DNA of 64,000 nucleotides from Filobasidium wieringae. Its lineage: Eukaryota; Basidiomycota; Tremellomycetes; Filobasidiales; Filobasidiaceae. The notes under the pieces were generated by a model. That model had not been told where the DNA came from and did not search any database. It was given only the letters and a program-made list of their open reading frames with translations. Position 1 is the stretch's first letter, and every line of letters starts with the position of its first letter. The stretch spans positions 1,908,146-1,972,145 of the forward strand of contig BCIV01000001.1 of the NCBI GenBank assembly GCA_001600055.1. Reading direction: 5' to 3'. Below, piece after piece: positions 5,910-54,903 of the stretch. The translations under genes and the position numbers were made by a program.

Positions 5910-8224
5910 ATGCCAAAACTAAAAATCGCCCTACGCGGGGAAGCCCTACTCCTCAACCCATCCCTAAACAAAGGCTCAGCCTTTACCCGTTCGGAAAGAG
6001 AAGCGTTCGGTCTAGTAGGATTATTACCTCTCCAATCGAATACCCTGGAAGAACAGATGGCTAGGGCTTATGAACAGTATGGATCCCACGATTCGGATTT
6101 GAGTAAGAACACTTTCTTGCAGAGTTTGAAAGGTTCGTCCCCGAGTGTTGTTTTTATTGTCAAGTAGAGGTTGTTCGTCTGATTTTGATTGAGACGATCG
6201 GGATTTTGTACATCAAAATCAGCTCAGAATTGGGTCCTCTTCTATTCCCTGATCAATAAACATCTTAAAGAAATGTTCCCCATCATCTACACCCGTAAGC
6301 TCTTCATCTTCTCGTCTCTAACCACCCCTCCGTCTCTGACCCATACCCCTCCCCCATTCCTCTTCCCCGACCACCCGCGCACACAGCGACCGAAGCCCAA
6401 GCAATCTCAAACTTCTCTCACCTATTCAGAAGACCAGAAGGACTCTGGCTCTCCCCCTCGGACGAGGACCATATGGAGCAATCCCTCGTGAACGCCATGA
6501 GGGGGAGGGAATTGGATTTGATCGTCGTCTCCGATGGGGAGGCCATCTTGGGGATTGGAGATCAGGGGAGTGGAGCTATTGGGATTAGTAGGTGGGTCTT
6601 TTCGTTTTACTTGTCCTTCTTGGTTTGGCCGTTTCACTTGTGCTGATTTGTTCATTCGTTTGTCCGTCCGTCCGTTGGCTGTTACGCTCGTTCGATAGCG
6701 CAAAAGGAATGATCTATACCCTCGTAGCAGGTGTAGACCCCGCCAAGATCTTACCTATCGCTTTGGATGTGGGGACGAACAACAAGGATCTATTGGACGA
6801 TGACATGTACCTCGTTCGTCAACTCTCCTTTTTCCCGTCTCAGGGCAGAAAAGTGATGATTTACTCGAGACACCCCCCTCCCTCGGAACCAACAGGGCTG
6901 GCCAAACCCCCGAATCAGGGGAGAACCTTACACCCGATTCCTCGATAAATTCGTATCCTTGATCAAAAAGTATCAACCCGCCGCGCTCCTCCATTTCGAA
7001 GACTTCGGGGTGGACAATGCGCAGTCTTTATTGGATACTTATCGGGATGGGTTCAAGGTGTTTAATGATGATGTTCAGGGTACGGGGGCTGTCACCGTGA
7101 GTCCCCAGCGGGTGCGACAGGGGGAGAGAGAGAGCGAAGGGGGGATGAGTGGGAGGGTAATAGGGGTAGGGCTGACCCGTTTTTTTCTTTCTCAGTTGGC
7201 GACCATTCAAGCGGGGTTGGAAGTGACCAAGAGTAGATTATCCGATCAGAGGATAATCAGTTTCGGGGCGGGTTCTGCCGGATTGGGGATCGCTAGGCAA
7301 TTGAGAGACGCCGCGATGCTCCTGGACGACGTTTCCGAGGACAAGGCGAACGGGATGATCTTCCTGGTCGATAAACATGGGTTACTCAAGGAGGGGATCG
7401 CCGGGAAGATCAGGGAGGGGATCGATAAGGGTTTCATCAGGCCGGATCGTGAGGGCGGAGAGATGGGGAGTTGGCCAGAGGGGGAGAATGGGCTTTTGGA
7501 AGTCGTCAAGAGAGTCAAACCGACCGTTTTGATCGGGACTAGTACGGTCTCTGGGGCTTTCGATGAGGACGTTATCAGGGCTATGGCAGAGGGGACGGAG
7601 AGACCGATCGTCTTGCCCGTAAGTCTCCTCTTGTCGCGCATGCCCGTCTCAGTGAAGGTGAAACGCTAAGCCGACGATCGACGGGGATAGCTCTCCAACC
7701 CGACTTCCAAGTGCGAAGCTCAACCTCAGGATATAATGAATTGGACCAAAGGTAAGGCCCTCATCGCCACCGGCTCACCCTACGATCCCGTCGATATCCC
7801 AGACGTTTCCGAAAAGTACCAAGTCGCCGAATGTAACAACGCCCTCGTCTACCCCGGATTGGGAATGGGAGCGATCGTCGCCAAGGCGAGCAAGGTGACG
7901 GATAAGATGATCGTCGCCGCTTGCAAGGCGTTGGGGCAGATGAGTCCCGCCAGGAAGGACCCGAAGAAACCTTTACTTCCTGACTTTCAAGGTCAGTTCC
8001 CGGTTGTCGATTGGTCGCACTCCGCGTTTACTGACCCTGTTTGTGATACAGACGCACAAGCGGTCAACAAGGAAATCGCGCTGGCCGTCATCAAGCAGGC
8101 GATCGAGGAGGGCGTATCGGACTTGAAGGTCCCCGAGGACGAGCTCCGAGATTATTTGGAGAAGCGGATCTGGAAGGCCGAATACGCCGAATACGAGTAT
8201 GATAAAGGTGGACTGGGCTTTTGA
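5910..8224 (+). CDS. MAE1: malic enzyme (malate dehydrogenase, decarboxylating; probably mitochondrial NAD-type)
   Basis: Converts L-malate to pyruvate and CO2 with reduction of NAD(P)+. Starts MPKLKIALRGEALL at 5910 and runs through about eight exons. Recognisable blocks in order: GLLPLQSNTLEEQ, RRPEGLWLSPSDED, LIVVSDGEAILGIGDQG, LPIALDVGTNN and ALLHFEDFGVDNA. Then FNDDVQGTGAVT, the Rossmann motif ISFGAGSAGLGIARQL (7256 on), VLIGTSTVSGAFDEDVI, LSNPTSKCEAQ, ALIATGSPYDPV and NNALVYPGLGMGAIV. It ends DKGGLGF at 8224. Metal-binding and catalytic Lys/Asp blocks are intact. I see no clear long presequence, so location is inferred from the family. Cofactor preference cannot be read by eye. Confidence 0.95.
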
Positions 8225-15129: not shown

Positions 15130-17879
15130 ATGCTCACCTGTCCGGAACCAGGCTGTGATAAGGAATACAAAAGGAAGGACCACCTGAAGCGACATTTGGC
15201 TAGCCGTGCGTTTCCGTCCGTCGTCGTCGAGCTACTTCGACTCGCTGATGGTATAGATTCAAGAAAGATTCTCAACCTGAATATGAATGTTCCACTACGG
15301 GATGCGGGATGAGATTTCGAAGATTGGACTTGCTTCGAAGGCATCTAAGAAGAAACATATGCGTGAATCCTCGTCGAAGGAGACGTATCGATGAACGTCT
15401 ATCTTCCGTAAACGATAACGATCGCGAACGGATCCTGGCAGAAGAAGAGGACGATGAGATCGAGTCCAGCCCGGTGCCTCCCCCGATTTTGTTTACATCA
15501 CCCTCGCGACTTGAAGAAAGCCAACAGGTCCCGGCACTCGATATCGGAGAACCGTCTGGAATTCTAGAACCGGCTGTCAATCTGAACACATCAATTTCAA
15601 ATGGAACGAGCCAGTTTCCCGTATCGAATAGCTTCGCACTGCCTCAGATACCACCATACCACCCACCTGAAGGAATCGAGGAAGAACACTGGGATTGCCC
15701 TGCTCCTTTTGACGCGATGGATACGCTAGCGGAACCATGGTGGAACTGGGACATGTCATCCGCCTCAAATCCACCCATAGATAGCTCGACGCTATTTCAA
15801 GATCTCAACGATATCTTGTCTGCTCCTTTCGATTTCTCGTTCTTAGATCAACCGCAAATTGCCTGTCGAGACAAGCCAGGACCGTCAGACACCGATAATA
15901 CCTCTCGACCAGAACCCATATCTGACGCGGTCGCGGAGCAGATCAATGAAGAGTACAAGGTGATTCTTCGTCGTATTGTTCTTCGGTATATGGCTCATAA
16001 CAACCCGTTGTGTAGAACCAGAAAGGGGAGGCGGTACTGAGTCGCCAATTCATACGGTCTTCAATCGATCGGTTCTGGAGTCAAGTAGCTTTATCGTTTC
16101 CGTTCATACATCATGGCACCTTCGACTACGAAACGTCCCCAAGTCATCTGCTCCTGCTAATGTGTATCGTAGGATCCACATACAACCCTGAGGGGTCTAG
16201 CTTGCACGATAACGTCCAGCGATACAACTTCGGACCGGTCGTCCAATGCATACGTGGACAACTGATAGCAGAGCTCTCTCTTACGGTCCCGATCAGTAAT
16301 CTCCAGACTTTCTTCTTGGCGCATTTGTACGACGTATGGATGTCTACATCGGAATCGCTCACTATCGCTCAGTGTACTTGGGGAACCATGGTCATTCTCT
16401 ACCGTCGCAAGGGGATTGGAGTCGGAACCCAAGGATTCAGCTCGACCTCGGACGCCGATCATGAATTTGACCTCGATGCGATTTGGCGCAGCTGGGCGAA
16501 AGAAGAAGGTCCGCCGTGATGGTTTCACTCTATGCAACTTTCGTCTGAAGTTTCCACCCTAATATAGAATGGCGGCGAGCAGTCTTCTGTATATGTCAGA
16601 TGGACACTCATATCTCTGGGTTCTTCAGTCAGCATCCCACCCGAGCTTTGAGCATCTTCGCTCACCGGATCAAAATGCCTAGTCCGCACCATCAGTGGCA
16701 AGCCGACTCGGCCTTGGCATGGGCAAAGTCTTTAGAAACGGGTCAACCACTCCATGCTTCTGGCCAGTCGGCCACACAAGATACTGCGACCACGGATGCA
16801 GCGATCAAAAAAGCCTACCTTCCGGCTATACACCCCGAGTTTGCTGTTCAAAAAGCAGCCGAGGGTTGGTCAGCCGGTATACAGGCAGCTTTATCGCCTT
16901 TGCCCACAGCAGTTTTACCTTTCGATCCAGCTGATCCGAACTCGGCCTTCAACGTCGAACTAGTATTGTGAGTCTCAGTACGCTCAAGTCTCCACGAGTC
17001 CGAAGCAGAGCGGATTTCTTCACTAGGACTGGTCTCCTTGCAGTCGCGTGGGATTGTAGAGTTCGGGGTGGAATGGGTATCCGCGCCTGGGATAGTGCGA
17101 ACGGAATGAAGCAGTGGAAACCTAATCTCTTGCGAGGTAAGTTCGCCCTTTATATTAAGGGAACTCTATAGCTCATCATATTCTGAGCCTTCAGCTGTGC
17201 TAAAACTTAGGCACACTGTATCTCCTTGGGCGGCATCGCATCTGAATCTGCGAGATTCGTTCGCTATAGCCATCGTCTCCGTACTGTCTGACATACCCAT
17301 GCTCCAGATCGTCGCGGGCGCTACGGAAGTTTGTGGATCTCCAAGTGAGCGCGAGTCATCGTGATCCACTTGAAAATATAGACTCACGTCCAAACTTCAG
17401 TCGGACGGAGAGAATATGCAGATGCCAAACGTCGTCATCGATTGTGGGCGAAAGGGCACGACGCCAGGACCTGTGTATATCAAAGTGCTCTTTACCTCCG
17501 TCAAACACTCGAAGCAGACAAGGGAATGTACACCAACTGGGCGATGTTCCTAACAACTGTAGGTCGGTCTCGTATTCTCATCGAAGGATCCATCTCATTC
17601 AGATTCGATACACAGCTCGTTTGTTGGTCATATATTACAGCAACCCGTAATGATCAAGCTACTGCTCCTCTGCCTGCGGACACGATATTCGGAACCCCCA
17701 AGGCTGCCTATCATTTTCTGGATCAGATAACGTCGATGAAAAACGTTGACGACATCACCTTTTTGCCTTTGCTGAACACTGATCCTCTTGTGGCTGCCGT
17801 GACGGCCAGCTCGACCAACTCCTATCCCATCGATAAAGAACGGCGAGCCATGTGTCTGCGACTCATGTCATATCGATAA
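15130..17879 (+). CDS. C2H2 zinc-finger transcription factor with fungal-specific regulatory domain
   Basis: Nuclear DNA-binding regulator. Eight exons: 15130-15205, 15268-15959, 16016-16508, 16568-16967, 17027-17136, 17195-17344, 17401-17562, 17641-17879; 773 codons, all phases close. Finger 1 is CPEPGCDKEY...H-x3-H; its last His is created by the first splice. Finger 2 is CSTTGCGMRFRR...RRHLRRNIC (C2HC). An acidic, Ser/Pro-rich linker follows. The fungal transcription factor middle-homology domain then runs from about residue 270: FPFIHHGTFDY, IWRSWAKEE-EWRRAVFCICQ, GLLAVAWDCRVRGGMG. It sits next to the MFS/deacylase/RidA/dehydratase block and is the likely pathway regulator (inference). 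The donor at exon 7 (GTCGGT) was chosen over GTAGGT to keep frame. Confidence 0.85.
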
Positions 17880-18274
17880 TACTACGGATCTACATTCTGC
17901 TAGAAAGGCGAATGGTTGTTCTCAACCGGAGAATATATCGAGATATAGGCCGTCGATTGAAGAAAAGTATGCGCTCAGAACCGCGTATGATTTCAATAAG
18001 TCCTGTCGAGAACTGATGAATGTCAGGGTCTCACAGCTCTTCGAAATGGCTGAGCCAGGTATGTATTTGCTCTATGAGTTTCACGGCGACAAGCGAAGAC
18101 AACGCAGACCAAAAAGCAATTTGGCCCTATACAATGAACTGACACGAACTAGACAATGATCGCCGTCAAGCTATAAGTTTCTGCAGGCAATTTCATCACG
18201 AGACTAAGACCCCTAAACCTACTTTATATACTAACTTAATCACTTCCTATCGACACAAGGCCTTCGACGAATGC
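17880..18274. other. convergent 3' region, regulator / MFS transporter
   Basis: 395 bp between convergent stops. AT-rich near 18220-18240; nothing recognisable beyond 3' UTR. Confidence 0.4.
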
Positions 18275-20788
18275 CTAGTAGAAGTAGCGGAACGCTGCCG
18301 ATGCAAACTTGATCAGCTCCTCGTTGTGAATGGCGACGAACAGAGAGGTACTTACCCGGATCAGTTGGCCCCTTTCCTAGGATCTCCGTGGGCACATCTT
18401 TGCTGCCGTAACCTTCGGGTAAGCCCTGCTCGCGATTCCTCCTTCGATTCTCGTATCGCATGTAGAAGCCCCAAATGAGAACACATGTGCCAGTCAGACC
18501 GCCGACAGCAGCAGATGTAACGAGCGCAGGAATGTATTTTGGCTCGTCCTGAGCCCTGAAGATGTTGGTCGAGATCAATCCACTAGAATTCGCTATGGCC
18601 ACCATGACTCCTGCCAGGACTGCACGTCTACTTTCAGAGGGCGAATTATTTGAGTACCAAGTACTCAACAGTACGCTGGGAGCGTTAGCGCCTGCGTAAA
18701 GTGGTCAGTTTTCGACGTTGTGTTTGGCCAGATGCCTTACACGTACCTATACAAAGCAAGAAACACGCGCTTGTATCGAGTGGGATTATCAGCATGCGAT
18801 TGGAAGAACAAAAATAGAGGGGTAGAACCCACAAGTAAGCGACTCCTTTGTTGTGCAACACATCTATCACCCCTAAGATGATGAAGCCAATCATGGTGAT
18901 GAAGAGCGGTATTGCCATGTGAATGGATCTTTCTCGAAAGTAATCCGAGCTCTGTGTGAAACCGATCAGGAAAAGTGTCCCAACAACATTGCTGTGATTA
19001 GATGACGTTAGTATACAATATAACAGGCCTATCACGCTGGACAACGAACGAAGACTCACGGAGCGACGGTGTACAGATTCGTTTTGACAACGCTCAAACC
19101 CTGAAAAACAGCTTCTCTGCGTTAGTTTTACAGCTAGTCCCCCGCGGTAACATCAGAGTACCCACTAGACGCGCGACGATCTGTGGAAGGAAGTTACCGT
19201 TGCTAGCTAGAGGTACTCCTAGCCCAAGAGCTAATATTGCCCATACTCCGTAACGCCAGTCACGGATAAACGGCAAAAACGCATCTTTTATCCTCAGCTG
19301 ACAATTGCGCAAGTCCGTTAGTGTATTGATCCAGTGGTAAAGAGAGGAATAGAGAGTACCTTCTCGTCCACTTCACTGGACCCGTCCATCAAGGATCTCT
19401 GAAGACACATCTCTTTCTCTTCCGGACTTAACATCCAGGCCGTAGCTGGGCTTCGAGGCAAATACTAAAAAGATATGAAGCCCACTCAATCGACACGTCC
19501 AATGACGTCAAGGCAGCCATAGACGTACGAAGAAAGCGAACAGCGCCATCGCAACAGTTCCGCTTCCTTCGATCAGGAATAAATACTGCCAGCCATAGAG
19601 CTTTGCGTTTGGAATTTGAAAAACCTGATCAAACGCACAGGTAAGGGGTCAGTGACATTGGAGGCATTCTCGATAGCGCTTACCCCATAGGCAATGAGGC
19701 CACTGAAAGCTCCCGAGATTGATGAGGCAGCGTAGAATAATCCGATCCTTCCAGCCAACTCGCCTCGCTTGTAAAATAATGAGAGATAGTAGACGGTCCT
19801 ATTTATCGCAGTCCGTGTCAATGGCCATAGTCGCGCCAACAAAGGGAAAAATGACCTACCCAGCTAACATTCCGCTCTCAAATATACCAAGCAGAAACCT
19901 TAAGGCAAAAAGACCCCCGAAATTCTTGACAGCAGCACTCAAGAGAGAACAACTTCCGAATCCCATCATGCAGATGGGAAGAACTCTAGCAGCCTGAGCA
20001 AATTCGTATTCAGTAAATGTCCTTTCAGCAGCATCTGAAGCAAAAAGACCTACTGAATATCGTTTGGCAAGCTGAAGAGTAGGTTGAATGAATGAAGAGA
20101 TATGTAAGATCAGTCTGAAATCCATGTCAATTCGACAACCCATACTCATACCATTGCAATCGGTGTACCGCAAAGACATAGGGGAATGTAGAACACCATT
20201 AAGATCAAATAGTCTGATAGGAACAGATCAAGATCAACCAAATATCTCGGGATTCAAGACGATAGTCTGGCTCTGCTCACATTGGTTTCCGACAAGGCCT
20301 ATATCCTTATCCAGTCCGTCTGTCTTAGCGTTACCCATATTACCCCTAATTCCAAGCCGAAGCCGAGATGATCAGCTTTACCTGATACGCTTTGCTATGG
20401 TAATTGCGAAGGCTTACTTGTCCAGACTATTGAATAGGTACATGATTGCTAGCACAGGCAGCAAGGTGAGGTCCAGCTTTCGACATAATCCTGCAAGTCA
20501 GCCGCGCATCGATCGAGGACTGGCCGTTAGAGCAGATCGAGTTGAACTCATATTCAAATCAGGCTTACGCTTCTCTTTCACGTGATCGACGGGAACAACC
20601 GAAGGTTCGGTGTCAATTGGATATTCCTTGAGATCGTACTGAGGCGTTGTGACCTGCTCCGTCGCGCCCGTCTCCATGTAAGACTTGTCTTTGGACAATG
20701 ATTCCTCTTGCATATTCATGAGTGTCTTATGATATTCACGTGTTTTGAGCCGATTTGTGGCCTCGATATACAAGTTCGAGATGTTCAT
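18275..20788 (-). CDS. MFS transporter, allantoate permease (DAL5) family
   Basis: Twelve-helix proton-coupled carrier of the anion:cation symporter group, whose members import allantoate, ureidosuccinate, dipeptides, nicotinate and similar anions. The N-terminal cytosolic part starts at 20788; an internal Met near 20719 is an alternative. A splice then restores the hallmark RKLDLTLLPVLAIMYLFNSL followed by DK. Later: ICMMGFGSCSLLSAAVKNFG, LRFLLGIFESGMLAG, YKRGELAGRIGLFYAASS, SGAFSGLIAYGV, EEKEMCLQRSLMDGS and YGVWAILALGLGVPL. The last exon gives ELIKFASAAFRYFY ending at 18275. It is divergent from the D-aminoacylase gene, so the cargo is plausibly an N-acyl amino acid or peptide (inference). 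Confidence 0.9.
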
Positions 20789-21246
20789 GATCTCATGGCT
20801 ATATATCTAAGTCAAACCGGACCCTCTACACCTGTCTTACTGATACAATCAAGAGCTTCCACCCGACGTATCTCGAGCGTTGAGGCGGGGAAGGTGGGGG
20901 AGTTGTAGTCAGCTGCTGTTTTGATCGGCAACGATGCGGAGCTGCAGCGAGAGCGCGTCGTCGGGTGTCACTATCTGCCACGCGGCCACCACCGATCGGG
21001 ACGGTTGACACTGGCCCGGATAAGGAACATACAGGAACGAGTGGAGTATCGAGATTCTATATTCCCTATTCTAATCTATCATCTCCCCCACTCAAGCAAG
21101 GGTTGAGGGGCTTCACAAGGTCAACACCTTCGCTTCAGGCAATCAGTCAAGTCTTAGGGGCAGCATATCAAAATGAGAACTACGCTTCACATTTCCGTAT
21201 GCGAACATAGCTATTGGAATTACTGTATCGACTACAACGGACCAGC
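20789..21246. promoter_or_regulatory. divergent promoter MFS / D-aminoacylase with repeated GTTGAGG-GGGG motif
   Basis: 458 bp. Contains CGTTGAGGCGGGG at 20878-20890 (about 90 bp before the MFS ATG) and AAGGGTTGAGGGG at 21108-21120 (about 130 bp before the deacylase ATG). AAGGGTTGAGG recurs exactly in the RidA/dehydratase promoter. TATATATC near 20802-20809 may be the MFS TATA element. Confidence 0.5.
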
Positions 21247-23048
21247 ATGACATTAGCTTTGATGCGAGACATTCTCTTCGTGCAACCTACCATCATCTCG
21301 GGCGAAGAGGACGGCGTGCCCTATGTCGCTGATGTACTGATCACTGAAGGTCGCATCTCTCAAATCGGAGATTTATCCCATCTGCCCTCATCAGTGGATT
21401 CTGTGGATGCCACTGGACTCGTCCTCTGTCCAGGATTTATCGATCTCCATGCGCATTCCGATCTATATCTGCTCACGCATCCGTCTCACGAGCCTAAGAT
21501 CACTCAAGGAATAACGACAGAACTGGTCGGCCAAGACGGTCTATCATATGCACCTACGAGGTCTGATAACGAGCTGAAAGCTATCAGAACGCAGATAGAA
21601 GGCTGGAACGGCAATCCGTCCGATGAAGACTGCAAAACTACCCACAAGAACGTTGGGTTGTTCGAATGGAGGACGATTGGGGATTATCTCGACTGCCTGG
21701 AAGCAAACAAGACCGCTACTAATGTCGCAATGCTGGTACCTCAGGTATGGCTCGATGAGGTCCCTTGCCACCAGTGACATGCTGACATGCTCATTTCCCG
21801 TAGGGCAACCTGCGACTGCTTGCCTGCGGACCAAACGACGAGCGCGCATCCGAATTGGAAATGAGGGATCAGCGGGCTCTTCTTCGTCAAGCGATGGAAC
21901 AAGGAGCAGTCGGTATGAGTTCAGGTCTTACTTATACTCCCGGAATGTACGCCTCGACTTCCGAATTGACTGCCCTTTGCCAAGAATTGGCTACTTTCCC
22001 GGGTTCGTTCTATGCTCCGCATCATAGATCCTATGGCAAAGGCGCTTTAGAGGCGTACGAGGAGATGCTCCAGATCGGACGAGACACGGGTGCTGCGATC
22101 CATCTCACTCACGCCACGATGAACTTTGCGGAGAACCGAGGGAGAGGAAAGGATATGCTGAGCTTGGTGGACTCTGCCAGAGCTGATGGGGTGGACGTCA
22201 CTCTGGACACCTATCCCTATCTTCCTGGCTGCACGACTCTATCGGCTATGCTCCCGTCCTGGGCCCAAGAGGGAGGACCTCACATGACGCTCGAGCGATT
22301 GAGGTGCCCAATCACTGTCGAGCAGATCAAACGTGACGTCGAAGACGGATGTGATGGAGGGCATGGTTTACCCATCGACTGGACAACAATCGAGCTATCA
22401 GGCCTTGGAGATGCAGGCATGGCCAAACAGTTTTCGGGGAAAACTATCATGGAAATCGCTGTGATAGAGAATAGGAATCCTGCAGATATGTTCGTTCGGA
22501 TTCTCATCGACGACAACTTGCGGACGAGCATCATCATGCACGTCGGAAACGAGGAGAACGTTCAATGCATTATGCAACACGAAGTCCACTGTGGCGGTAG
22601 CGATGCGTGAGTATAGCTTGTCACTGCAGACCAGTCTCAATTCGCTGACTATGATCACTGATGGTGAAGAATCTTGCATGGGGGCAAGGTTCACCCACGC
22701 GCATGGGGAACTTTCCCGCGGTTCGTGGGCCATTATTCTCGAGATCTCGGACTCATTCCACTTCATCGTATGATCGCCCACTTGACAACTCGACCGGCAA
22801 AGCGACTCGGAATTTATCCTCGGCGAGGTGTCATCAGATCCGGATCAGCGGCTGATCTCGTCTTGTTCGATCCCAAGGCGATACGCGATCTCGCTACTTT
22901 CGCAAACCCTACGAAACAATGCGTGGGGGTGGAATGGGTCTTGGTCAATGGTTCTGTAGCTGTACAGAATGGCAGAACTACAGGTCTTCGAGGCGGAGAA
23001 GTGCTTCGAAGACGAAAGGATGGCACAGTCAGGGGAAATCTCTTGTAA
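21247..23048 (+). CDS. N-acyl-D-amino-acid deacylase (D-aminoacylase), amidohydrolase superfamily
   Basis: Hydrolyses N-acyl-D-amino acids to a carboxylate and a free D-amino acid. Three exons 21247-21744, 21804-22606, 22670-23048, phases 0 and 2; 559 residues. Metal-binding HxH is H68-A-H70 in GFIDLHAHSDLYLL. The block TELVGQDGLSYAP has QDG where many bacterial D-aminoacylases carry NCG with the bridging Cys. Further motifs: GMSSGLTYTPGMYAS, FYAPHHRSYG, IHLTHATMNF, LDTYPYLPGCTTL, and the catalytic Asp in GGSDA at the exon 2/3 junction. The C-terminal GSAADLVLFDP and CVGVEWVLVNG form the closing beta-sandwich. The ATG at 21247 is the first in frame; MRDILF at 21262 is an alternative. No signal peptide, so cytosolic. 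Confidence 0.92.
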
Positions 23049-23231
23049 ATTGTGAACAGATGACATGAGTGAACTATACTCTGGAAAAGACGATATTGAA
23101 GTTCGAACCCCATTATATCACTGTATCAGGAAACATCAGTAGTTCGAATCTGTTCCGGAGAATCAATCGATGGGACGATGTAAGGGGTGTACGTAGAGCA
23201 GTTTACACCATTTGAATTTCGCATTACAAGT

Positions 23232-23730
23232 CTATACAGCAGCGATAAGCTCAATTTCGACCCTGACATCATTAGGTAGCTTGCCAGCCTGAATACAGCT
23301 TCTAGCGGGTTTTGGGTTGCCGAATAGCTGTGAATCGAAGAGTTCAGATCGTCATCCATATAAGAAGCATTGTTCACTGACAGTTTCATAAACCTCGTTC
23401 ATTTCCGCAAAATCAGCCATATCCTTGAGGAAGACCTGAACTTTGATGACTTTGCCGAGATCCGAACCGGCGTGGTGCAGCACTTGCTCAAGGTTCCTCA
23501 CGCATTGCGTAGTCAGCTCCTTGATTCCCCCTTCAACCACTTTACCCGAAGCATCGATCGGGGTCTGTCATGAAACCAATTTAGCTGTCGTATTCCTACG
23601 AGGTACAACTACTTACCTGGCCTGAGCAATAGATCAAACCTCCATGGATTGTCGCGGGCGAAAGAATATGGGGGACAGCCTTCTGGTCCTTCACGCCCGT
23701 GACAAATGAGACATTGTTGTTGGAAACCAT
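23232..23730 (-). CDS. RidA/YjgF/UK114-family enamine-imine deaminase
   Basis: Hydrolyses reactive 2-aminoacrylate/2-aminocrotonate released by PLP-dependent dehydratases. Three exons 23730-23617, 23564-23382, 23327-23232, all phase 0; 130 residues, the usual length. Motifs: VPHILSPATIHGGLIYCSGQ near the N-terminus, ELTTQCVRNLEQVLHHAGSD, VIKVQVFLKDMADFAEMNEV, and FGNPKPARSCIQAGKLPNDV with the conserved Arg, then RVEIELIAAV. It is convergent with the deacylase (183 bp between stops) and divergent from the D-serine dehydratase-like gene. That places it exactly where its detoxifying role would be needed. Confidence 0.95.
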
Positions 23731-24075
23731 TTTGTAATGAACTGAAGTACTACAGTCGGCTTCAAGGCAGGTGATCTGAGCAAGAACGGAATTGGTTCGC
23801 CAGGAGAGCCGAACGGAGGTGTAGTGTGACGATCCTTTATACCTTGTAACCTTGTCGCCCGCGCTAGTGATGGTCGGGATTTTACGTTACCGATAGGGTG
23901 GGGGCGCGGCCTCATCCGAATCTAAGGGTTGAGGAGGGGATGCTTGCCCAATGGGACGGGTAGATGAAGCCGATGAGACTGTACCGTATAAGAAACATAC
24001 TCTGGGTTTTCATCGTCAGGTCGATACAGTCGGAATACCAGCACGAGGCCGACAAGCTCTTGCGCTCTATCAGCC
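23731..24075. promoter_or_regulatory. divergent promoter RidA / D-serine dehydratase
   Basis: 345 bp. Holds AAGGGTTGAGGAGGGG at 23924-23939, sharing an exact 11-base core with the MFS/deacylase promoter, plus GATAGGGTGGGGGCG at 23892-23906. A 62-codon ORF starting at 23951 overlaps the dehydratase start and is not supported. Confidence 0.5.
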
Positions 24076-25804
24076 ATGGTTCACCAATCGTTCACTGCTT
24101 CACCGGATTTGTTTGGCGGACCCGATCGATCTAGGTTAAAAGCCGCATTTGTTGGAAAGGCGTTGAGCGAATTGAGAACACCATGTAAGCTGGAGACGTA
24201 TCGTGTTGGATACTCCAACTGATATAGTCAGGAAATCGCCTAGGCTTTGTCATCGATCGAGATGTTGTCGCTCGTAACTGTGCAAAGATGCACGAGCGAG
24301 CTGAGCGGATGGGAATGGGATTCAGAGCTCACGTCAAGACCCTCAAGGTGAGCAGAGCTGGTGCCGAATGGAAGAAAGTATCTTCATTGACCGGTGATAT
24401 GCTGCGATTTCCTGTGTTATAGTCCGCAGAAGTGATGAGACACCAGCTCAAATCGTCCAAGGGTTCTTCGTCTGCGATAGTCTGTTCGACTATGCCTGAA
24501 GTGCTCGGAGCTCTCCATTCCAATCTGGTCGAAGAGGGGATCCTAAAGGATGTAAGTACCCTCTTGTATGAGCCCTGTGCGCGATCTCTCAGCTCATAGC
24601 AATCAACCAGATCATGCTGGGTATCCCCCTCCCTCTAGACCGCATATCAGAACTTGCTCAAGTCGCAGACACCTTACAAAAGCACGCTGGTCATGTTCGC
24701 ATACTCATTGACCATCCGAAGCAACTCTCATTTGTCGAGGAGTGGACGAAGCAGGAGGCTAGACATCGGAGATGGAGTGTCTTTGTCAAGTGTGATGCGG
24801 GCGGGAAGTGAGTTCGATGTCATAACGGGACGCATATCGATACCGAACTGAAAAGAAGCTCTACGCAGTCGAGCTGGATTACCACCTCAGTCCGAAGAAA
24901 TGAGAGACTTGATACAACGGCTTCTAAGCTCGACATGTGCGGACATCTTCGGGTTTTATTGCCATAATGGAGGTCGGTAGCCTTGCAGTCTGGATCGTCG
25001 CGCCTTTGACTGAACCTTCTAATTCGATACCTCACAGCTTCTTATGCCTCTTCCACTCCAACAGAAGCCGCCACATACCTCACGGGAGAACTCGCGGCTG
25101 TCAACGATGCAGCTGGAGTCTGCTTGGAGCTGAGAGGATCCGCACCTGAAGTCCCATATGTCTTGGCCATGGGTAGTACGCCAGCTGCTCATTGCGTAAT
25201 GGAAGAAGGAGCGATCATCCCAGCGAGATTGAATGGTGTCATGGAGTTGTAAGTGGAGACCGCATGGAATGAGCGAAGCACCTGATATTTATGTATCCCC
25301 TTCTCGCTACAAAACAGGCATGCCGGATGCTATCCTGCTTGCGACCTGCAACAGATGTCAACCAAGGCTGTCCAGCAATCAGATGTGGCGATCAAAGTTG
25401 TATCGCGAGTCATCTCAATATATGAGAAAAGGAAAGAGGCGTAAGTACAGATCAGCAGACAGATCCGTTTTAGCGCTGACGCCTCCGCTTCTTTGCGCTA
25501 CAGCATGTGCGATGTCGGAGCAATCGGTCTGTCCAAAGACACTGGGCCATCCGGCGGATTTGGTCTGATCGTCAATTCATCGGCACGTGGCTGGAAGATT
25601 GGCAGGACATCCCAAGAACACGGTCTGATGGTAGTTGACAACGCTTCCGGCTTGAGTGCCCCAACTCCAGTAGATCTGGGACAGATGGTGCATATCATCC
25701 CACAACATGCATGCTTAACTGCAGCACAGTATCCGTGGTATTACGTAATGGAGAAAGGAGGGGAAGAGGTGGTCGACGTATGGGTTCCTTGGAAATTCTG
25801 GTAG
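24076..25804 (+). CDS. DSD1: PLP-dependent D-serine dehydratase / D-threonine aldolase-like protein (alanine racemase fold)
   Basis: Zinc- and PLP-dependent enzyme expected to deaminate D-serine (and D-threonine) to the 2-oxo acid. Eight exons: 24076-24184, 24244-24347, 24423-24551, 24611-24807, 24869-24972, 25038-25248, 25318-25440, 25504-25804; all phases close. Lys68 in GFRAHVKT is the expected PLP lysine. Other blocks: VARNCAKMHERAE, VFVKCDAG, RAGLPPQSEE, GFYCHNG, SYASSTPTEAA, YVLAMGSTPAAH, LHAGCYPACDLQQ and MCDVGAIGLSKD. A His-x-Cys (QHAC near the C-terminus) matches the zinc site of eukaryotic D-serine dehydratase. The start was chosen because MVHQSFTASPD runs in frame into the conserved VGKALSELRTP. 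Confidence 0.93.
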
Positions 25805-25971: not shown

Positions 25972-28521
25972 TCAAACCCAACCCGTCTCTGGGAGGTCAT
26001 ACAAGGCCGTCTGCACTGCCTTTATACAGTCTCTGAAACAGTTTGCCTCCAAACTTGTCAACTCCGGAGCCAGTTCAGGCAACTTTCGTAGTTCTTCTTG
26101 AGCCGATTTGACAATCCCGGCTACTTTCTGGATCATCACGGCCCACGCGCCGTTGCAAGGGATTTTCTCACTCATCTATGCGCAAAAGTCATCGTTTAGA
26201 TGCGAGAATCACGACCGTATGCGGATTCAGACACTAACAGCTTTCAGCCCGCCGTTCCAATGAAATTCCTTTTTATTATGATTTTCAAGTCCCATTCTTA
26301 CAGCTTGGAAAATTTCGTTAGGCACTCCGTCGATAGAATTCATCCGTTTTGCAACCTAAAATCAACCAAATGAGGTCACATTCACGAGCCGATATTTAGT
26401 GACCCGGCTCACCTGGTACATCAAGCAGTATAGAATTGACTCGATATCATCAATGTACCGATGTGGCGCGTTTCTGAGTCCCGCTGGAACCTCGTCTTGA
26501 TAGACATCTTCAAATCCCATGCACAGGTTGAATTGCTCAACGGCTTTGGCAACTGATGTACAGAGAAACGTGGTGTTACCAGATCTCCTGTCGTCCTGGC
26601 ACAGGTTTTTGATTTCCGAATTGGTTTGATCTCGAAGAGGATCTCTTCGCTCGTTTTTGTAACGAGAATTGCCATAATCGATCAAAAAGCCGTACAGCTC
26701 GCCCGAAGGAGACCTTGCAGATACGATATTCCCGAGGTTGAGATCCCGGAAATGTATGTTGTGGGATGACGCCAAGAAAAGCGCTTGCATGGCTCCAAGA
26801 TAGATGGCTGAAACGTCTCGCAAGGAGAGATTATCTTTATCTGCATCAATGCGCCTCCCTACGGGTCCTTGCATGACGAAGACGGAAAGCTCTAGAGTCT
26901 TTTCTGAGAATTCGTCTCCCAGACAAAGTCGTTCGTTTGTGACCCACGGAATCGTGGAATCGGGCAGGTCGACCATCCCTATAGGAATTGGGACGCTACT
27001 TCTGATGAGTGGGGGTACGATAGGATCGTTTGCTGTCAGTAGCGGGCTCGTGCTGGTCTCGTTCATTCGGTGTAACATTTTTAGTTCGTAATGTACCAGT
27101 CTCGGAGGTAACCAAGCCGATTTGAGAATCACTGAAACAGGCGGCGCTTCCACTCGAAGGGAAGCCATCGTGCGCCAGACAGCGGTCCTTCTTCCCCAGA
27201 TTGCAGCTCGAGCATCCAAAAGGTGGACCAGCACCTCTTTGTTCGTGGCAATCCTGTTTTTATCAACCTTCCGTACTTTCTTTGACTTACCGCCTTTCTT
27301 TATCTTGTCGACTGCCCTTCTTTCCCTGGCTGTCTCTTTAGTCTCTGTGCTTTCCGCTTCCCAAACCAGCTTGAATGTCCCGGTCCGGCGAGGAGTGGCC
27401 TCTTGGGAAAAGACACTGCATGTGACCGAATGAGCAGGTGGCTGCCAACTCTGTAGAATCCTGTCATCGGGGCCGCTCAATAATGCAATGATCTTGACGA
27501 CATCCTTAGCGTGGTCTGGCTTGAAGATATTGTAGGCTCGTGTGGCTATGATGTTTCCTGGATCTACGAAAAACAGGCGGAGATAAGATCCACATAAGGT
27601 AAAGAAGTAGCTTCTGCCAGCAGCCGGATTATTGCAAATTTTCCTTCGCTAACCAATCGATCCCCGTCATCAAAGCACTTGATTGATGAGCACATCGCAA
27701 GGCAGACTCACTTCGTAACGACAGCCCTCTATTACTGGACTTTCGTCAGCAAAAAGCGTTTTCATGTCCGAGGCCGGTAGCAGTTCCACCAGTCCACCTG
27801 TTGCGAGATCAGACCAGTGTGTATTCTCGTTACTTGAGAGCGCGATCGTGAGCTTGCGCAGGATGCCCATTTTTGTCTTGTCTACTCGTTCAGCAGGCGA
27901 ATCGCCGATGTCACCGAGGTATGTATGACCGCCGAAGACGAACGGATCGTGTCCAGCAGCATTCACGTCCGATCCTGAAAGTAGGGATGCAATCTTGCTG
28001 AAGTAGATCGATACCGCGAATGAGTATCGGTCTTCCTTTGAACTCAGTAGAATGGCCGGTGATTTATGCCCATCTTTCATCTCTTTAGCATGCTCTAATT
28101 CTGGCGGATTCGCTTGGATCCAGGCGATGGTCCGGTCAATTGCTCCGGCTTGTGCGTCTGTCAAGTTTTTCCAATTCAGGTTCAACGGGCGACCATCCCA
28201 GTATTGGCCTATGTCAGAATGAATCCACTCATTGACCGCTAGCGTCCGAGATCCCCGATCGTCCAGACTTTCCTGAAAATCATCAAGTCCATTGCCGTCG
28301 CTGTTGACAGGAGTGCTCTCACTCTGTGTATCGAATGGGAATTTGTCCTCTGCTTCTTTGATTGCCTCTGCCTCTGCGTGATAACGTTGATACAATAGCG
28401 GGTAGGTTCTACGGAATGCCTCATGGGTGCTCTTTCTGAAGTTGACCCTGTCATGCGCGATCCAATGTTCGGGAGTGGCCAAACTGGTGCTGACTTCCAC
28501 CTTGATATCATGAACACCCAT
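25972..28521 (-). CDS. FunK1-type fungal protein kinase
   Basis: Serine/threonine-kinase-like protein of the FunK1 group expanded in Basidiomycota; targets unknown. ATG at 28521 (MGVHDIKVEVSTS). The first exon, about 280 residues, is the variable N-terminal half. After an intron come NNPAAGRSYFFTLCGSYLRL and DVVKIIALLSGPDDRILQSW, conserved with the second copy at 61.9 kb. The catalytic loop reads HNIHFRDLNLGN (HFRD, Asp and Asn kept). The magnesium loop is IDYGN in place of DFG. Downstream RYIDDIESILYCLMYQ matches the FunK1 activation/F-helix region. Two short C-terminal exons end at 25972. The exon join near 27660-27690 gives a shorter-than-usual middle segment. Confidence 0.8.
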
Positions 28522-28830
28522 CTTATTTAGGTTGATACACCCTGCAGCTGTGCTAAAGGTGAGCAGGATATAAGCCAAATGTAACTTGCAATCTGAATCG
28601 AGCCAAGAGGCGCGAGTTGATCAATATTGTGCATTGCGCAAAACGCATATTGAAGAGACGAACGCTCATTTTGCTTCCGATGCTTGAATGAGATTACTCA
28701 TGTACAGGATCTTGAGGTACCTTCTGAAGCTTCTGAGCTTCTGAAGCTACCGATCTTCTGTTTAGCACCGCACGCAACACGAAAACTATCGGTTTATAGG
28801 ATCGATCCAGGTTGATATTGCCAACACTCT
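28522..28830. promoter_or_regulatory. divergent promoter FunK1 / ALKBH7-like
   Basis: 309 bp between start codons. Contains a tandem of GAAGCTTCTGA/TTCTGAAGC near 28724-28746 (imperfect palindromic repeat). No TATA. Confidence 0.4.
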
Positions 28831-45068: not shown

Positions 45069-45691
45069 GGGCGCTCGGGGTGGGTTTATTGGTGCGGCTG
45101 AGCCGGGTGGGAGGGATGGGGGTTGGGAAAGATGGGGGAAGGACTGGGTGTGATCGGGTCAGTTGGGGAGAGATGGGTTCGGGAGGTGGGACGTACGGGA
45201 TTCATTCTGGGGTGACTTGGATGTTCGTTGGGGTCTGTACAATTAGGGAACGTTGTCCATGGTCGAGAAAGTGAGAGCGACGATGTGACGACGATGTTGT
45301 GATGGAATGTTGTGATGAGATTTGATGGACGACGACCATCACTCGAATTGATTCTGATCACTGATTGGCTCGATCCATCAGAACTCGCAGAACGTCCCGG
45401 GTCGTCGCATCCGACGGTCCCTCGTATCTTTCCACTCGACGACCTCTTCGACCTGCTCCACCATCGTCCACGTCCACATCGCACCCACCGACCTCTGACC
45501 TCTGACCACTGCTCAAACCCGCCAGATCGTCCCCGTTGAAACGTCTTGAACGCGGAATCAACCGGTTCGTTTTCGCACCCAACACGAGCAGCACCATCAG
45601 TGTGTATGACATCGACGCCAGCGCCGTCCCCTCCGACGATCCCTCATTCCACCTTCACCCACCCACCACCCACCACCCACCACCCGCCACG
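45069..45691. promoter_or_regulatory. divergent upstream region, proline-rich protein / RWDD2-like
   Basis: 623 bp. Contains a CCCACCACCCACC microsatellite leader at about 45660-45685 just before the RWDD2-like ATG. ORFs spanning it are GC-driven and lack ATG in the right place. Confidence 0.4.
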
Positions 45692-46719
45692 ATGTCCACC
45701 CACCGCACGACCCACACCGAGACGATCCAGATGTTACAATCCCTCTATCCTCTCCCTGACGAACTCGTCCTCTCCCCCCCCACCCTTCGCGCACTCGAAG
45801 ATCCGGGGGGGTTCGGGGTCGACTCGCTCGTCTGTACGCTGACCGTCCCTCTGGATCCGGATCGGGAAGGGGTACAAGGATGTGCTGACGGAGAGGGAGA
45901 GGGGGAGGGGATGGTCAGGCTGAAGATCACGCTGGGAGTGGAGGGGGGGGAGGTGAGGGTGAATTTAGTATCTGGGCCCGGGGGGTTGAGGAGGGAAGAG
46001 ATGGTCATGATCGATCATACGTTGGCTCGATCGATTTCGCACCAAGACCGACAACAAGAGGAGGAGGAGGAGGAAGACCCGTTGACCCGGATCAACTCGT
46101 TGATCCAACTCACACGTCAGACCATCACTCGTCTCATCCAGCTCAAACCCCACCTTCCCCCTCCCAACCCCCTAGACCCCTCTTCCCTCTCTTCCCTCCC
46201 CTCCCTCACCCCACCTACCCCCGAACCACTACAAAGGATCTACTTCCGATTCCCCTCCCTCTCGACCCCCTCTAAACGACGAGACCTAGTCTCCTACGCC
46301 GAACAGCGGGGCTTGACCGGGTTCGTACTGGCCGGAAAACCGGGACTGCTCTGTGTGGAAGGGACGGATACGGTCGTAGGGGATTATTGGAGGGAGATCA
46401 GGGCGGGGAGTTGGGGGGATATACCGGGGTTTCAGAAGAAGGTTAGTTGGGGGTCGAGGCTTGGTGTTGCTCCGTCCGTCTAACTCGGTCTCTCTCTCTC
46501 TCTTATCACTCTCCTATCCCCCCCCCCGCTCGTTCACAGGTCTCCGAGAAAACCCGGCACCCGATCCCGCACCGCCAGTTCCCGGATATGCAAGAGATAA
46601 CGCACCTCATCGATCAGCGGGGGTCCAGGGGGAATAGGGGGGATATGAGGCAGGTCAGGGAGTGGATGGAGCGGTATGGCTTGGGAGGGGAGTTTGGGTT
46701 CGTACTTGGGCAGGGGTAG
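45692..46719 (+). CDS. RWD domain-containing protein 2 (RWDD2)-like
   Basis: Cytosolic protein with an N-terminal RWD domain and a C-terminal DUF1115 domain; molecular role unclear. Two exons 45692-46441 and 46540-46719, phase 0; about 309 residues. The RWD part starts HTETIQMLQSLYPLPDELVL and includes GGEVRVNLVSGPG. An acidic stretch QQEEEEEEDPL links to DUF1115: RIYFRFPSLSTPSKRRDLV, LTGFVLAGKPGLLCVEGTD, VGDYWREIRAGSWGDIPGF. The end is MERYGLGGEFGFVLGQG. The KPGLLCVEG and W-x-x-I-R blocks match human RWDD2A/B. The ATG at 45692 is the first in frame. Confidence 0.88.
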
Positions 46720-48467: not shown

Positions 48468-49829
48468 CTATCCCAAAACCTGCTTCAACCCTTCCTTTTG
48501 ACTGGCAGACAGACTGGTAGGGAACACGACGTTCCATCGGACGATCAAGTCTCCTACTCGTTTCGTCGAACTGGCTCGGGTGATGGGGAAACCCTCATCG
48601 GGGATCTTGATCTCGTCGTTGGGTTTGATGATCTGCGTAGGGAAGGATTCATGCTCAGTCAGCGAAATTCGGGAACGGAACTAATGATGTGGACTCACCC
48701 CTCGAGGTACGGGGACCTTGATCCTCCTTCCATCCAGATGTTCGACCTCCTTGGTCGTCTCGCTACTTCCCGTCAGTGCGTCGAGCAACCCGACGTTCAC
48801 GTTGATGACCAGGTCGTCGTCTTGCCTCTTGAACCTCGTATGCTCCTTCTCTTCTACGACAAAGACCAGAGTTTGCCCTCTTCCATATTCATCCTCGTTA
48901 CCCGAGTCGGTGAATTTCACCTTGGTGCCTTTTTTCCATCCGGCTTTGTAAGAAATTTCCAAGACCTTGTCCATCGATTGTCCTGAACGTAGCTTTCGAG
49001 TGATCTTGAGTCGTTTCGTTCCTCCCTTGTAAAGTTCTTCCAGGGAGAGAGCGAGGGGACGGGTGATCTCGGCTACGGGAGGGGGTGGAGCTGATTCTTG
49101 AGGTTTCCTTCGTTGTTGTCCGCCTGGACGTCCGCCCGGCATTCCACCGAATCCACCGAACTGCGAACCTCCACCACCTCCGAACATGTCTTCCATTCCA
49201 CCACCACCACCTCCCATTCCACCCATCCCTCCGCCGAACAGTTGCCTATACATGAACGAGAGTGAATCAGCTTTACCGATGTGACTTCAGGTGTTTCCCA
49301 TCGACCGACTCACGAAAATATATCGTTAGGATCGGATGGTCTGAATCCTCCTGCACCTCCACCACCACCACCACCGAAGTTGAACGAAGCACCGGGGAAA
49401 GCGCCTCCTCCCATCCCTGCACCGAATGGGTTGCCTCCAGGTCCTCCACCACCTCCTCCGCCGGCCTTCAAACCTTCTTCACCATATTGGTCGTATACGG
49501 CTCGTTTGTTCTGTTTCACGAATGGCTAGTGAGCTCAACATATAATCGCTACCACTAGGAAAGGACGGATGACTAACATCATCAGAAAGAACCTCGAATG
49601 CCTCGCTGACAGACTTGAATTTCTTGCTGGCGGCTTCCTCGTTGTCCTTGTTCCTATCCGGATGCCATTTCAAGGCCTATACATAATGCATCAGACGATC
49701 ATCAGTGGCCTGTTTCACAATGGTCAGACGATAGCGAATGACACTCACAGCCTTTCGATAAGCTTTCTTAATCTCGTCCTGAGAAGCACCCTTGTCGACT
49801 CCCAGAAGTTTATAGTAATCTTGACCCAT
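48468..49829 (-). CDS. SIS1: Hsp40/DnaJ co-chaperone, class B (SIS1/DNAJB type)
   Basis: Stimulates Hsp70 ATPase and delivers clients; cytosol/nucleus. Starts [20 protein letters not shown] at 49829. The J domain includes the HPD tripeptide in [15 protein letters not shown] and [14 protein letters not shown]. It continues [17 protein letters not shown] into a Gly/Phe- and Gly/Met-rich linker ([20 protein letters not shown]). There are no zinc-finger CxxCxGxG repeats, so class B. The C-terminal beta-sandwich domains show [49 protein letters not shown], and end KEGLKQVLG at 48468. Five or six exons. Confidence 0.93.
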
Positions 49830-52740: not shown

Positions 52741-54584
52741 TCAAACCGATCGAGCTTTCCGCCCGTACTGCCAATTCTCGACCTCTTTGAAGCCTCGCGG
52801 CCAATAAGCAATTTCCCGCTCATCGCCTCCTTCACGTATCACCGTATAAGAGACATTTCTGCTGTAATCATCCAGAGCCCCGTTCCTGTACTTGCGCCAA
52901 GTCATTCGATCTCCACTTTCCAACCCGGCTAGATCTGCTCGGGACCCACGCGTGACGTTCGTGAAGACCGTTCGATTCCCTTGGATTTGCCTCACGAATC
53001 CATCCTCAAATACGTATTGATCTTGTCTGACCGGTACAATTGCGTCCCAAATAGTCCGGATGGCGGTTGGACGACCCAGTTTCCGGCGGACATGTCCATG
53101 AACAACCGAAGAGCGTAGTCCCTATCGATGTCTACTCCAACGATGTTCAGCCATTCTTCAAAGGTATATGGCAACCCAGCCAGTCTCAGCTGGATCAGCT
53201 TGATCGCTGAATTCCTCAAGCTTTTCTTCCCTTCCGTTCGTTTCCTTACCTCCGCATCGATATGCAACAAGTAAAGCACTCCACGATAATAAGGTAGCCT
53301 CTGTGCGTTGTTGTCGGACCAAGCCTTTTCGCTGCACTCAACGGATGACATATGGATAGCTGGCGAAGTGTAGTAAGAGGAAAGGATGTTGTTGAGCTGA
53401 ACAAGGAAACGGTCTTCGGGGATCAGACCTAGCTCGTAAGGGAGTACAGCTTGGTAGTAGGTAGCGATTCCTGAATCGTGATGAAGGATCAGCGAACGCC
53501 TTTTTGGTGGCGACAAGGGATGTGACTGACCTTCCTCGTACCAAGTCGCATTCGGATCCTCCTGCCCACCCTCAACCCCTTGCATGGTAGGCCAGTTATG
53601 TACCATCTCATGCGATACTAAAAAGTACAGATCTTCTTGCTTGCCCTGCTCATCCTCGTCATCTTTCCCTAAACGGATCCCCTGATCCCATTCGAGCATG
53701 AAACTCCATGTGTACGCACCCCCTCCGTAACCCCTGGGAGATTCTCGTAGGAACACGCGGTATGCTTCTCCAGGTGTTTCGAAGAATTCAGACATCTGAG
53801 GGTACAGCTTTGAGATCTGCTCAGCGAGGAGGGAAGGGTCGTCCATGAGATGTCGGGGAGGAGTTGTGAGCCAGTAAAATCCGTACCCGGGCAGATCAGG
53901 GTGAGACCAAGATGACAAAGTTCTTCCGATCATGTAAACTGTATTGACTAACGTCTCTGCAGGGCCGATACGGGTACTGGACGTGCCTTCACCGAATGTC
54001 CACACCGTGCGAGTGTCGTTGGGAGAACGTGACAAATCCCAATTGACAGTCAGATTGTATAGCACCAGAGTCTCAGCGAATCCTTCCAGGACAGTAGGTA
54101 CGAAAACGTTCCCAGTGCCAATCAGTCCTCCAGAATTATCCCTGAAATCTATCCGAGGTCCCGGAGGAGTAGCCTTGTTAGTCGGTCTTGGGTAGACCGT
54201 GAAATCAAGGACGATGTCTCCGACCGTATCTCTGCGTGCAGACCAGCTGCGCAGAGGGACACCTTCCTTATCAGATATGATCAAGTCGAGAGGACCCAGA
54301 TCATCTGAAGCCCTGATAGATTCCCTTCCACGATAGTCCATACTGGGCACTCTCCCGACTTCCAGGACCATCTGCAAGAAGCTTTCATCGTGCTCGAACC
54401 GTCTACCGGATATAGTCAACGTAGCGTTAAGAGCTTGAACAGTCGTGTTATCCTGAGACCATCTTGGTACTAGATCCAGAGCTAAGCCCGGTAAAGATGT
54501 TGCAATTTGTTGGGATGCCGACGGCCAGTTAAGACCGAGCCAGAGCTGGATCGTCGTGAGGATGTATACGAATATTGCTCGCAT
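52741..54584 (-). CDS. secreted M61-family (glycyl aminopeptidase-like) metallopeptidase with C-terminal PDZ, apparent frameshift
   Basis: Zinc peptidase with N-terminal signal peptide (MRAIFVYILTTIQLWLGLNW). N-terminal beta domain; GNVFVPTVLEGFAETLVLYN precedes the catalytic part. The zinc site is H325-E-M-V-H329-N-W331, and the Glu ligand is in WYEEG (about 350). An intron follows WYEEG and exon 2 resumes IATYYQAVLPYELGL. After WVVQPPSGLFGTQ (about 53050) the frame stops. The continuing sequence VPVRQDQYVFEDGFVRQ is in another frame and leads into a PDZ-like module (SRADLAGLESGDRM) ending at 52741. No intron fits, so a one-base loss near 53035-53041 (error or real mutation) is likely. N-glycosylation sites are abundant. 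Confidence 0.85.
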
Positions 54585-54903
54585 TTCTGAACTCTCCTAG
54601 CACTGGTTCGAACACAAAGTGATTCGACAAGCCTGTCCAACATGGTTGAGTCGCTGATTTTTGAGTCTAAATGGTTCGACCTGAGCGTTGCTGATTGCTG
54701 ATCGAGGGTTGACTGGACTGCCATGTCGCCGTGTGATCGACCACGCGGACTAGACCGAAAGCGTACCAGATCATAATGGCTAGCGTACCAGACTTCTACT
54801 GGTCTGCAAATGTGCAAGAATCGAAAAAGCGACATCCACACAATTGATGGTGATATTTTCATACAAACCGTTCGCTTGTCATTCTAAACATAGCATATTA
54901 GCA
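54585..54903. promoter_or_regulatory. M61 promoter / RBM42-like 3' region
   Basis: 319 bp. Both neighbours are on the minus strand, so this is the M61 promoter side only up to the RBM42-like gene... with the latter upstream in coordinate terms. It contains direct repeats GCGTACCAGA at 54761 and 54783. Nothing else recognised. Confidence 0.35.

Follow-up and report, generated by a model that had tools for sequence, protein, structure and literature searches.

Closest Described Systems

The best described counterpart of the genes treated here is bacterial. In Pseudoalteromonas, growth on N-acetyl-D-glucosaminate (GlcNAc1A), the oxidised end of chitin, requires each of OngB, OngC, OngD and KdgK (PMC9537276). 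According to that report, the deacylase OngB forms glucosaminate, the pyridoxal phosphate (PLP) enzyme OngC acts next, KdgK phosphorylates the resulting 2-keto-3-deoxygluconate (KDG), and the role of the RidA protein OngD is left open (PMC9537276). A Vibrio plasmid record (L141) carries the ong gene types, namely a PF14031 enzyme, an RpiR regulator, a deacylase, RidA, an SSS carrier, a KdgK-like kinase, a 2-keto-3-deoxy-6-phosphogluconate (KDPG) aldolase and GH20. The eukaryotic reference is the D-serine dehydratase family, for which we take yeast Dsd1p to be a D-serine dehydratase and the structure 3anu to be the chicken enzyme. The subject of this analysis is a 64,000-base window of the Filobasidium wieringae genome (contig BCIV01000001.1; window coordinates are used throughout), in which a regulator, a transporter, a deacylase, a RidA protein and a dehydratase are encoded consecutively at 15130-25804.

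Like the ong cluster, this locus has a deacylase of D-aminoacylase fold, a PF14031 PLP enzyme, a RidA protein, a transporter and a regulator side by side. Whereas the ong cluster has KdgK, KDPG aldolase, GH20 and an SSS carrier, the fungal cluster shows none of these; the subfamilies of its PLP enzyme and deacylase also differ, and its regulator is a C2H2 protein. Taken with the gene contexts of bacterial relatives, the comparison suggests a fungal catabolic cluster whose most likely substrate is GlcNAc1A, a reading to which we give about an even chance. If it is true, insect- and fungus-dwelling fungi can use the acid terminus that lytic polysaccharide monooxygenases (LPMOs) leave on chitin. 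Use of oxidised chitin ends has a tested bacterial route, and literature searches found no fungal one and no comparable cluster or pathway in fungi. The statement in the initial annotation that no named cluster resembles this one is thus uncontradicted for fungi; it does not extend to bacteria, where the accessible text of the ong report describes a cluster both named and tested (PMC9537276).

The Five-Gene Cluster

The cluster is confirmed. Five consecutive spliced models, none with an internal stop, fill 15130-25804, from the ATG of the regulator at 15130 to the dehydratase stop, which ends at 25804. The contiguity of enzymes, transporter and regulator is that of a fungal catabolic cluster. 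The genes and the divergent regions between them are as follows.

15130..17879, plus strand: C2H2 zinc-finger and Fungal_trans regulator, 799 aa, 7 exons (15130-15205, 15268-15959, 16016-16508, 16568-16967, 17027-17136, 17195-17344, 17401-17879)
18275..20788, minus strand: major facilitator superfamily (MFS) transporter, anion:cation-symporter-like, 555 aa, 14 exons; MFS_1 97.5 bits
20789..21246, no strand: divergent region between transporter and deacylase, 458 bp, containing the candidate element at 21006-21032
21247..23048, plus strand: deacylase (Amidohydro_3, D-aminoacylase fold, "QDG" type), 559 aa, exons 21247-21744, 21804-22606 and 22670-23048; Pfam 96.8 bits
23232..23730, minus strand: RidA-family enamine/imine deaminase, 130 aa, exons 23730-23617, 23564-23382 and 23327-23232
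23731..24075, no strand: divergent region between RidA and dehydratase, 345 bp, containing the candidate element at 23974-24000
24076..25804, plus strand: D-serine-dehydratase-family enzyme (fold-type III, Zn/PLP), 425 aa, 8 exons (24076-24184, 24244-24347, 24423-24551, 24611-24807, 24869-24972, 25038-25248, 25318-25440, 25504-25804)

The four structural genes thus form two divergent pairs. The Pfam matches of the models are, in order, Fungal_trans with zf-C2H2, MFS_1, Amidohydro_3, Ribonuc_L-PSP, and D-ser_dehydrat with Ala_racemase_N. Together, models and domains bear out the gene families, order, limits and paired arrangement given in the initial annotation. Exon borders were picked by hand, with weak donors at 16509 (regulator), 23381 (RidA) and 24973 (dehydratase), and the ends of the regulator and transporter models are uncertain.

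The regulator (Fungal_trans 57.7 bits, zf-C2H2 37.6 bits) shows a finger-like motif at residues 4-26 and another at 33-57; its last exon is uncertain, as is the GTCCGC donor at 16509. The transporter, with a TAG stop at 18277-18275 and an uncertain last exon, appears weakly nearest to D-galactonate carriers: its top NCBIfam model is TIGR00893 (D-galactonate transporter) at 137 bits, below the cut-off of 395, and DgoT is its best match among solved relatives (23.6 bits). The RidA protein scores 123.5 bits with Ribonuc_L-PSP (PF01042), over the cut-off, and 118 bits with TIGR00004, over the cut-off of 106.25. It has the PARSC motif, in which Arg 108 is presumably catalytic. RidA-family matches occur at four places in the genome (19.76 Mb, 33 contigs).

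Intron numbers differ among the genes. The deacylase has 2 in 1,680 coding bases, the fewest per kb of the five, compared with 7 in 1,278 for the dehydratase, 2 in 393 for RidA, 13 in about 1,668 for the transporter and 6 in 2,400 for the regulator. Such intron poverty is what a later acquisition of the deacylase gene might show.

Linkage in Other Fungi

Linkage was judged from the locus tags or equal contig sizes of database proteins, using the best 120 matches each for deacylase and dehydratase. Eleven fungi have tags in both lists, and in six of them the two tags are one or two apart (deacylase/dehydratase):

Kwoniella shivajii: IL334_005086/005087
Kwoniella dendrophila: L201_003873/003872
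Cryptococcus floricola: B9479_007290/007291
Cryptococcus sp. DSM 104548: IAR50_007545/007547
Kwoniella sp. CBS 9459: IAU59_006908/006907
Kwoniella sp. CBS 6097: IAT40_005889/005890

The tags are distant in the other five (K. newhampshirensis, K. shandongensis, Cutaneotrichosporon spelunceum, Cryptotrichosporon argae and Pseudohyphozyma bogoriensis). In Kockovaella, deacylase and dehydratase both lie on contigs of 672,263 bases, and in Meredithblackwellia the deacylase, dehydratase and RidA are all on contigs of 441,921 bases. RidA and dehydratase tags differ by two in Saitozyma and Phenoliferia; in K. dejecticola and Psilocybe cyanescens they are distant. The two proteins are on equal-sized contigs in Lentinula boryana and Mycena floridula, and on contigs of different size in L. 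raphanica. Among the best 120 matches there is no deacylase from a mushroom, weaker ones being unseen. By these tags and contig sizes, linkage of the enzymes is conserved and recurs in fungi, and the co-occurrence in relatives that had been proposed as a check on the cluster is found.

The Deacylase and Its Relatives

The deacylase keeps the HxH motif and catalytic Asp of subtype V amidohydrolases (AfDam, BbDam and OngB) as His68, His70 and Asp433. The Cys/His/His metal site of this subtype is not complete: in the alignment Asp97 stands at the Cys column, and His239 and His269 are kept. Compared with D-aminoacylase and N-acyl-D-glutamate deacylase (1m7j, 3gip), the fungal enzyme replaces the zinc-binding Cys by Asp97, the carboxylate Lys by Thr271 and the Glu by Tyr243. 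The substrate residues of OngB are Ser292, Glu226 and Lys254 in the accessible parts of its description (PMC12017989). At the corresponding columns of Vibrio OngB, the fungal protein has Thr310, Tyr243 and Thr271; the presumed match to the numbering of the Pseudoalteromonas protein (PpOngB) was made through the Vibrio protein, which runs six ahead. At OngB Gln298 (loop 2), the loop is longer in the family of the fungal deacylase and MAFFT places a gap in Vibrio OngB. With the Cys zinc ligand and further residues of both the characterised D-aminoacylases and OngB missing, the residues of the enzyme decide for neither substrate. The same clade without the Cys ligand occurs in a recurrent actinobacterial cluster, where the substrate can be assayed directly.

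The deacylase search gave 6,056 matches among 7,997 scored candidates. The best 120 comprise 48 named fungi followed by bacterial and metagenome proteins at 53-58% identity, the named bacteria being Arthrobacter and Nocardia. The fungi belong to what we take to be Tremellomycetes, Microbotryomycetes and Hypocreales (Metarhizium, Beauveria, Cordyceps, Clonostachys and Trichoderma), with few others. The QDG motif, scored by pattern, is present in 115 of the 120 listed proteins and in 77 of 80 bacterial loci described below.

A quick tree of 22 of the 48 named fungi plus the window protein, 22 bacterial rows (20 of the 80 loci and two listed proteins) and six outgroup rows places the 23 fungal deacylases in one clade (support 100) among the bacterial rows, nested among Actinobacteria. 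When rebuilt with two outgroup rows, neither monophyletic bacteria (p-AU 0.43) nor monophyletic basidiomycetes (p-AU 0.31) is rejected. By these trees the deacylases of fungi and Actinobacteria share a clade, the direction of transfer being unproven by the tree. Transfer from bacteria to fungi is favoured because of the narrow fungal spread among the listed matches and the low intron number. On this view an actinobacterial deacylase gene would have been added to a dehydratase-RidA pair already native to fungi.

An outgroup made up of the remaining Amidohydro_3 genes in four actinobacterial genomes was rejected, as only the three QDG deacylases themselves scored and the inspected frames were not D-aminoacylases; plasmid D-aminoacylases served instead. 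On a Cetobacterium plasmid (L144:3529-11612), a QDG-type deacylase lies between a YgeY hydrolase and SsnA, near dpaL and a guanine deaminase.

The Dehydratase

The dehydratase is the sole PF14031 match found in the genome search. It scores 83.8 bits with D-ser_dehydrat in Pfam and 145.6 bits with the D-serine dehydratase 3anu, its closest match among solved proteins. Its motifs are HVKTLK at 66-71 and HxC at 394-396; we take the former to hold the PLP lysine and the His and Cys of the latter to be zinc ligands. By PF14031 domain, PLP Lys and His/Cys zinc motif, the enzyme is predicted to be of the type of Dsd1 and the chicken enzyme. Both it and the eukaryotic D-serine dehydratase (Dsd1p, 3anu) combine PF14031 with Ala_racemase_N, the PLP lysine region and the HxC motif; unlike that enzyme, its gene is placed in a deacylase/transporter cluster. 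The best NCBIfam model is the 3-hydroxy-D-aspartate aldolase BhcC, at 74 bits against a cut-off of 690. A tree of 43 of the 120 listed matches, selected by hand, plus the window enzyme does not show the linked dehydratases as one clade; in it the window enzyme sits on a long branch with Pseudohyphozyma.

Gene Contexts in Bacteria

Bacterial loci were taken as the best 80 of 585 confirmed stretches from a scan of prokaryote genomes; 15 of the 80 are under 20 kb owing to contig ends. With the proteins of an Arthrobacter locus (L002) as phmmer queries (E 1e-8), counts within 8 kb of the deacylase are 79 for the PF14031 enzyme, 76 for IclR, 74 for RidA, 71 for a KDG-kinase-like protein, 60 for GntP and 57 for KDPG aldolase. 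All seven genes are present in 43 of the 80, and the order RidA (minus), IclR (minus), kinase (minus), PF14031 enzyme (plus), deacylase (plus), aldolase (plus), GntP (plus) in 37. These labels are backed by family HMMs in L002 and in part in L009, L035, L060 and L077. The tested aldolases pass the TIGR01182 cut-off and the tested GntP proteins that of TIGR00791. The kinases of L002, L035, L060 and L077 have KDG/KDGal kinase models on top, below cut-offs, and that of L009 was tested with Pfam alone. For the regulators, KdgR and BhcR models score alike, below cut-off.

The actinobacterial seven-gene clusters (L002-L081) look like ong clusters with a different, non-OngB deacylase, since the PF14031 enzyme of the Vibrio ong record is 34% identical (216 bits) to the Arthrobacter one. 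Their deacylase is of the same clade as the fungal enzyme, with about 49-58% identity in the listed matches and the QDG motif, but neither their dehydratase nor their RidA closely resembles the fungal protein, and their kinase and aldolase are missing from the fungal cluster. The RidA proteins of fungus and actinobacterium share 33% identity. As only the deacylase is clearly common to the two trios, the trio looks to have been assembled separately.

Proposed Route and Substrate

We infer that the substrate class is an N-acylated 2-amino-3-hydroxy acid of D configuration. Within this class, GlcNAc1A is rated above N-acyl-D-serine or -threonine because of the gene context of the bacterial relatives: KDG-kinase-like protein, KDPG aldolase and gluconate permease near these deacylases point to an N-acyl aminosugar acid rather than to serine or threonine. 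The MFS carrier would import GlcNAc1A, the deacylase would take off acetate to give D-glucosaminate, the PLP enzyme would eliminate the 3-hydroxyl as water to leave an enamine/imine, and RidA would hydrolyse this to KDG and ammonia, with the zinc-finger protein turning the genes on. The KDG would then need an aldolase. All substrate, flux and regulatory steps of this route are those we infer. D-glucosaminate has the D-threo arrangement at C2/C3, as in D-threonine and D-threo-3-hydroxyaspartate; a Dsd1-type enzyme could therefore in principle eliminate the glucosaminate 3-hydroxyl, and the enamine would be a RidA substrate.

Several points weigh against GlcNAc1A. By score the deacylase appears closer to D-aminoacylase 1m7j (258 bits in phmmer) than to PpOngB (9kb1, 167 bits), though on fold the two tie, and it is without the Cys, Lys, Glu and Ser of OngB. 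The dehydratase is of Dsd1 type, with 22.7 bits to OngC and 368 to a Kwoniella homologue. As a query it matched the PF14031 enzyme in none of the 80 bacterial loci (E 1e-5); the fungal RidA matched in 75, anywhere in the locus, and the transporter in 3. It scores 68.6 bits with a PF14031 enzyme of Azospirillum whose context is of peptide type. A KDG kinase or aldolase is absent among the five models and from Pfam searches of 22 of the 36 flanking open reading frames of at least 150 aa, and KDPG aldolase (PF01081) gave no match in the genome search. PfkB matches lie on contigs C9, C10 and C21 and PF00701 matches on C5, C6 and C8, none in the window; the frames of the latter are broken by introns. 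The genome search found no AA10 LPMO (PF03067), the fungal AA11 enzymes not being part of it; GH18 chitinase matches are present. For the bacterial GntP proteins the D-serine carrier model DsdX gives matches as well (192 and 213 bits), weaker than those of the gluconate models. Fungal D-aminoacylases active on N-acetyl-D-amino acids are reportedly the subject of patents. Given the Dsd1-type enzyme and the missing kinase and aldolase, GlcNAc1A is only somewhat likelier than a D-amino-acid substrate.

The possible alternative that a minority of our confidence goes to is a unit for N-acyl-D-amino acids, in which the cell would take up N-acetyl-D-serine or -threonine and remove the acetyl group, and dehydratase and RidA would yield pyruvate or 2-oxobutanoate and ammonia as a nitrogen source. 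The products of this route call for no additional dedicated enzymes. The dehydratase has a D-serine dehydratase as its nearest solved match and is the one PF14031 gene that the genome search found, and RidA and dehydratase are linked, by tag or contig size, also in fungi for which the 120 listed matches include no deacylase. The Azospirillum trio lies on a plasmid amid oligopeptide ABC genes, and its PF14031 enzyme is nearer to the fungal one than OngC is. This alternative is opposed by the actinobacterial deacylases of the same clade, most of which lie beside KDG-kinase-like, KDPG aldolase and gluconate permease genes that D-serine breakdown does not need. The initial annotation had proposed import, deacylation, elimination and RidA action on D-amino acids; the logic of that route is plausible, and ordinary D-amino acids are not its favoured substrate given the context of the bacterial relatives. 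The Azospirillum plasmid (L143:1424-11181) holds a D-aminoacylase, RidA and a PF14031 "alanine racemase" amid oligopeptide ABC transporter genes and IclR, a likely D-amino-acid setting.

Another aminosugar acid, such as the galacto epimer or one with a different acyl group, is unlikely. The tested bacterial kinases match best to bifunctional KDG/KDGal kinase models, so that the context does not fix the sugar configuration, but in the accessible parts of two reports (PMC9537276; PMC12017989) GlcNAc1A alone among such acids has a pathway that was tested. It is more improbable still that the genes are neighbours without common function and that the real pair is RidA and dehydratase alone: deacylase and dehydratase are far apart in five of 11 fungi and the promoter element is only weakly significant, but they are adjacent in six, and bacteria have the same enzyme trio from non-orthologous parts.

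For GlcNAc1A, a broader proposal is put forward tentatively, its likelihood falling a little short of even. Tremellomycetes, Microbotryomycetes and Hypocreales may have a pathway from N-acetylglucosaminate through glucosaminate to KDG, built from a horizontally acquired deacylase of actinobacterial type with a new variety of metal site and a native dehydratase-RidA pair, which would be the first in a eukaryote.

Candidate Promoter Element

The two divergent regions share a similar 27-bp element.

21006..21032, plus strand: 27-bp element, copy 1, 22/27 identical to copy 2; possible regulator site
23974..24000, plus strand: 27-bp element, copy 2, in the divergent region between RidA and dehydratase; suggestive only

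The score of the element was reached by 1 of 60 dinucleotide shuffles, by 14 of 1000 in a second run and by 64 of 1500 random window pairs. Its core, TAAGRAACATAC, has five matches in the genome, two of them in this cluster; a reversed-pattern control likewise has five. As a basis for shared regulation, the element can be regarded as a lead only.

Other Features of the Window

One undetermined base (N) is present at position 296. Pkinase_fungal matches occur in two frames, 26362-27648 (minus strand) and 62713-63942 (plus strand); a frame neighbouring the first, 27670-28620, is without a Pfam match. A weak Peptidase_M61 match lies at 52995-54596, a Prp3_C domain at 45506-46480 and a DnaJ_C domain at 48684-49286. 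Malic enzyme (malic and Malic_M) is encoded at 6860-8221 on the plus strand, split across at least two frames.

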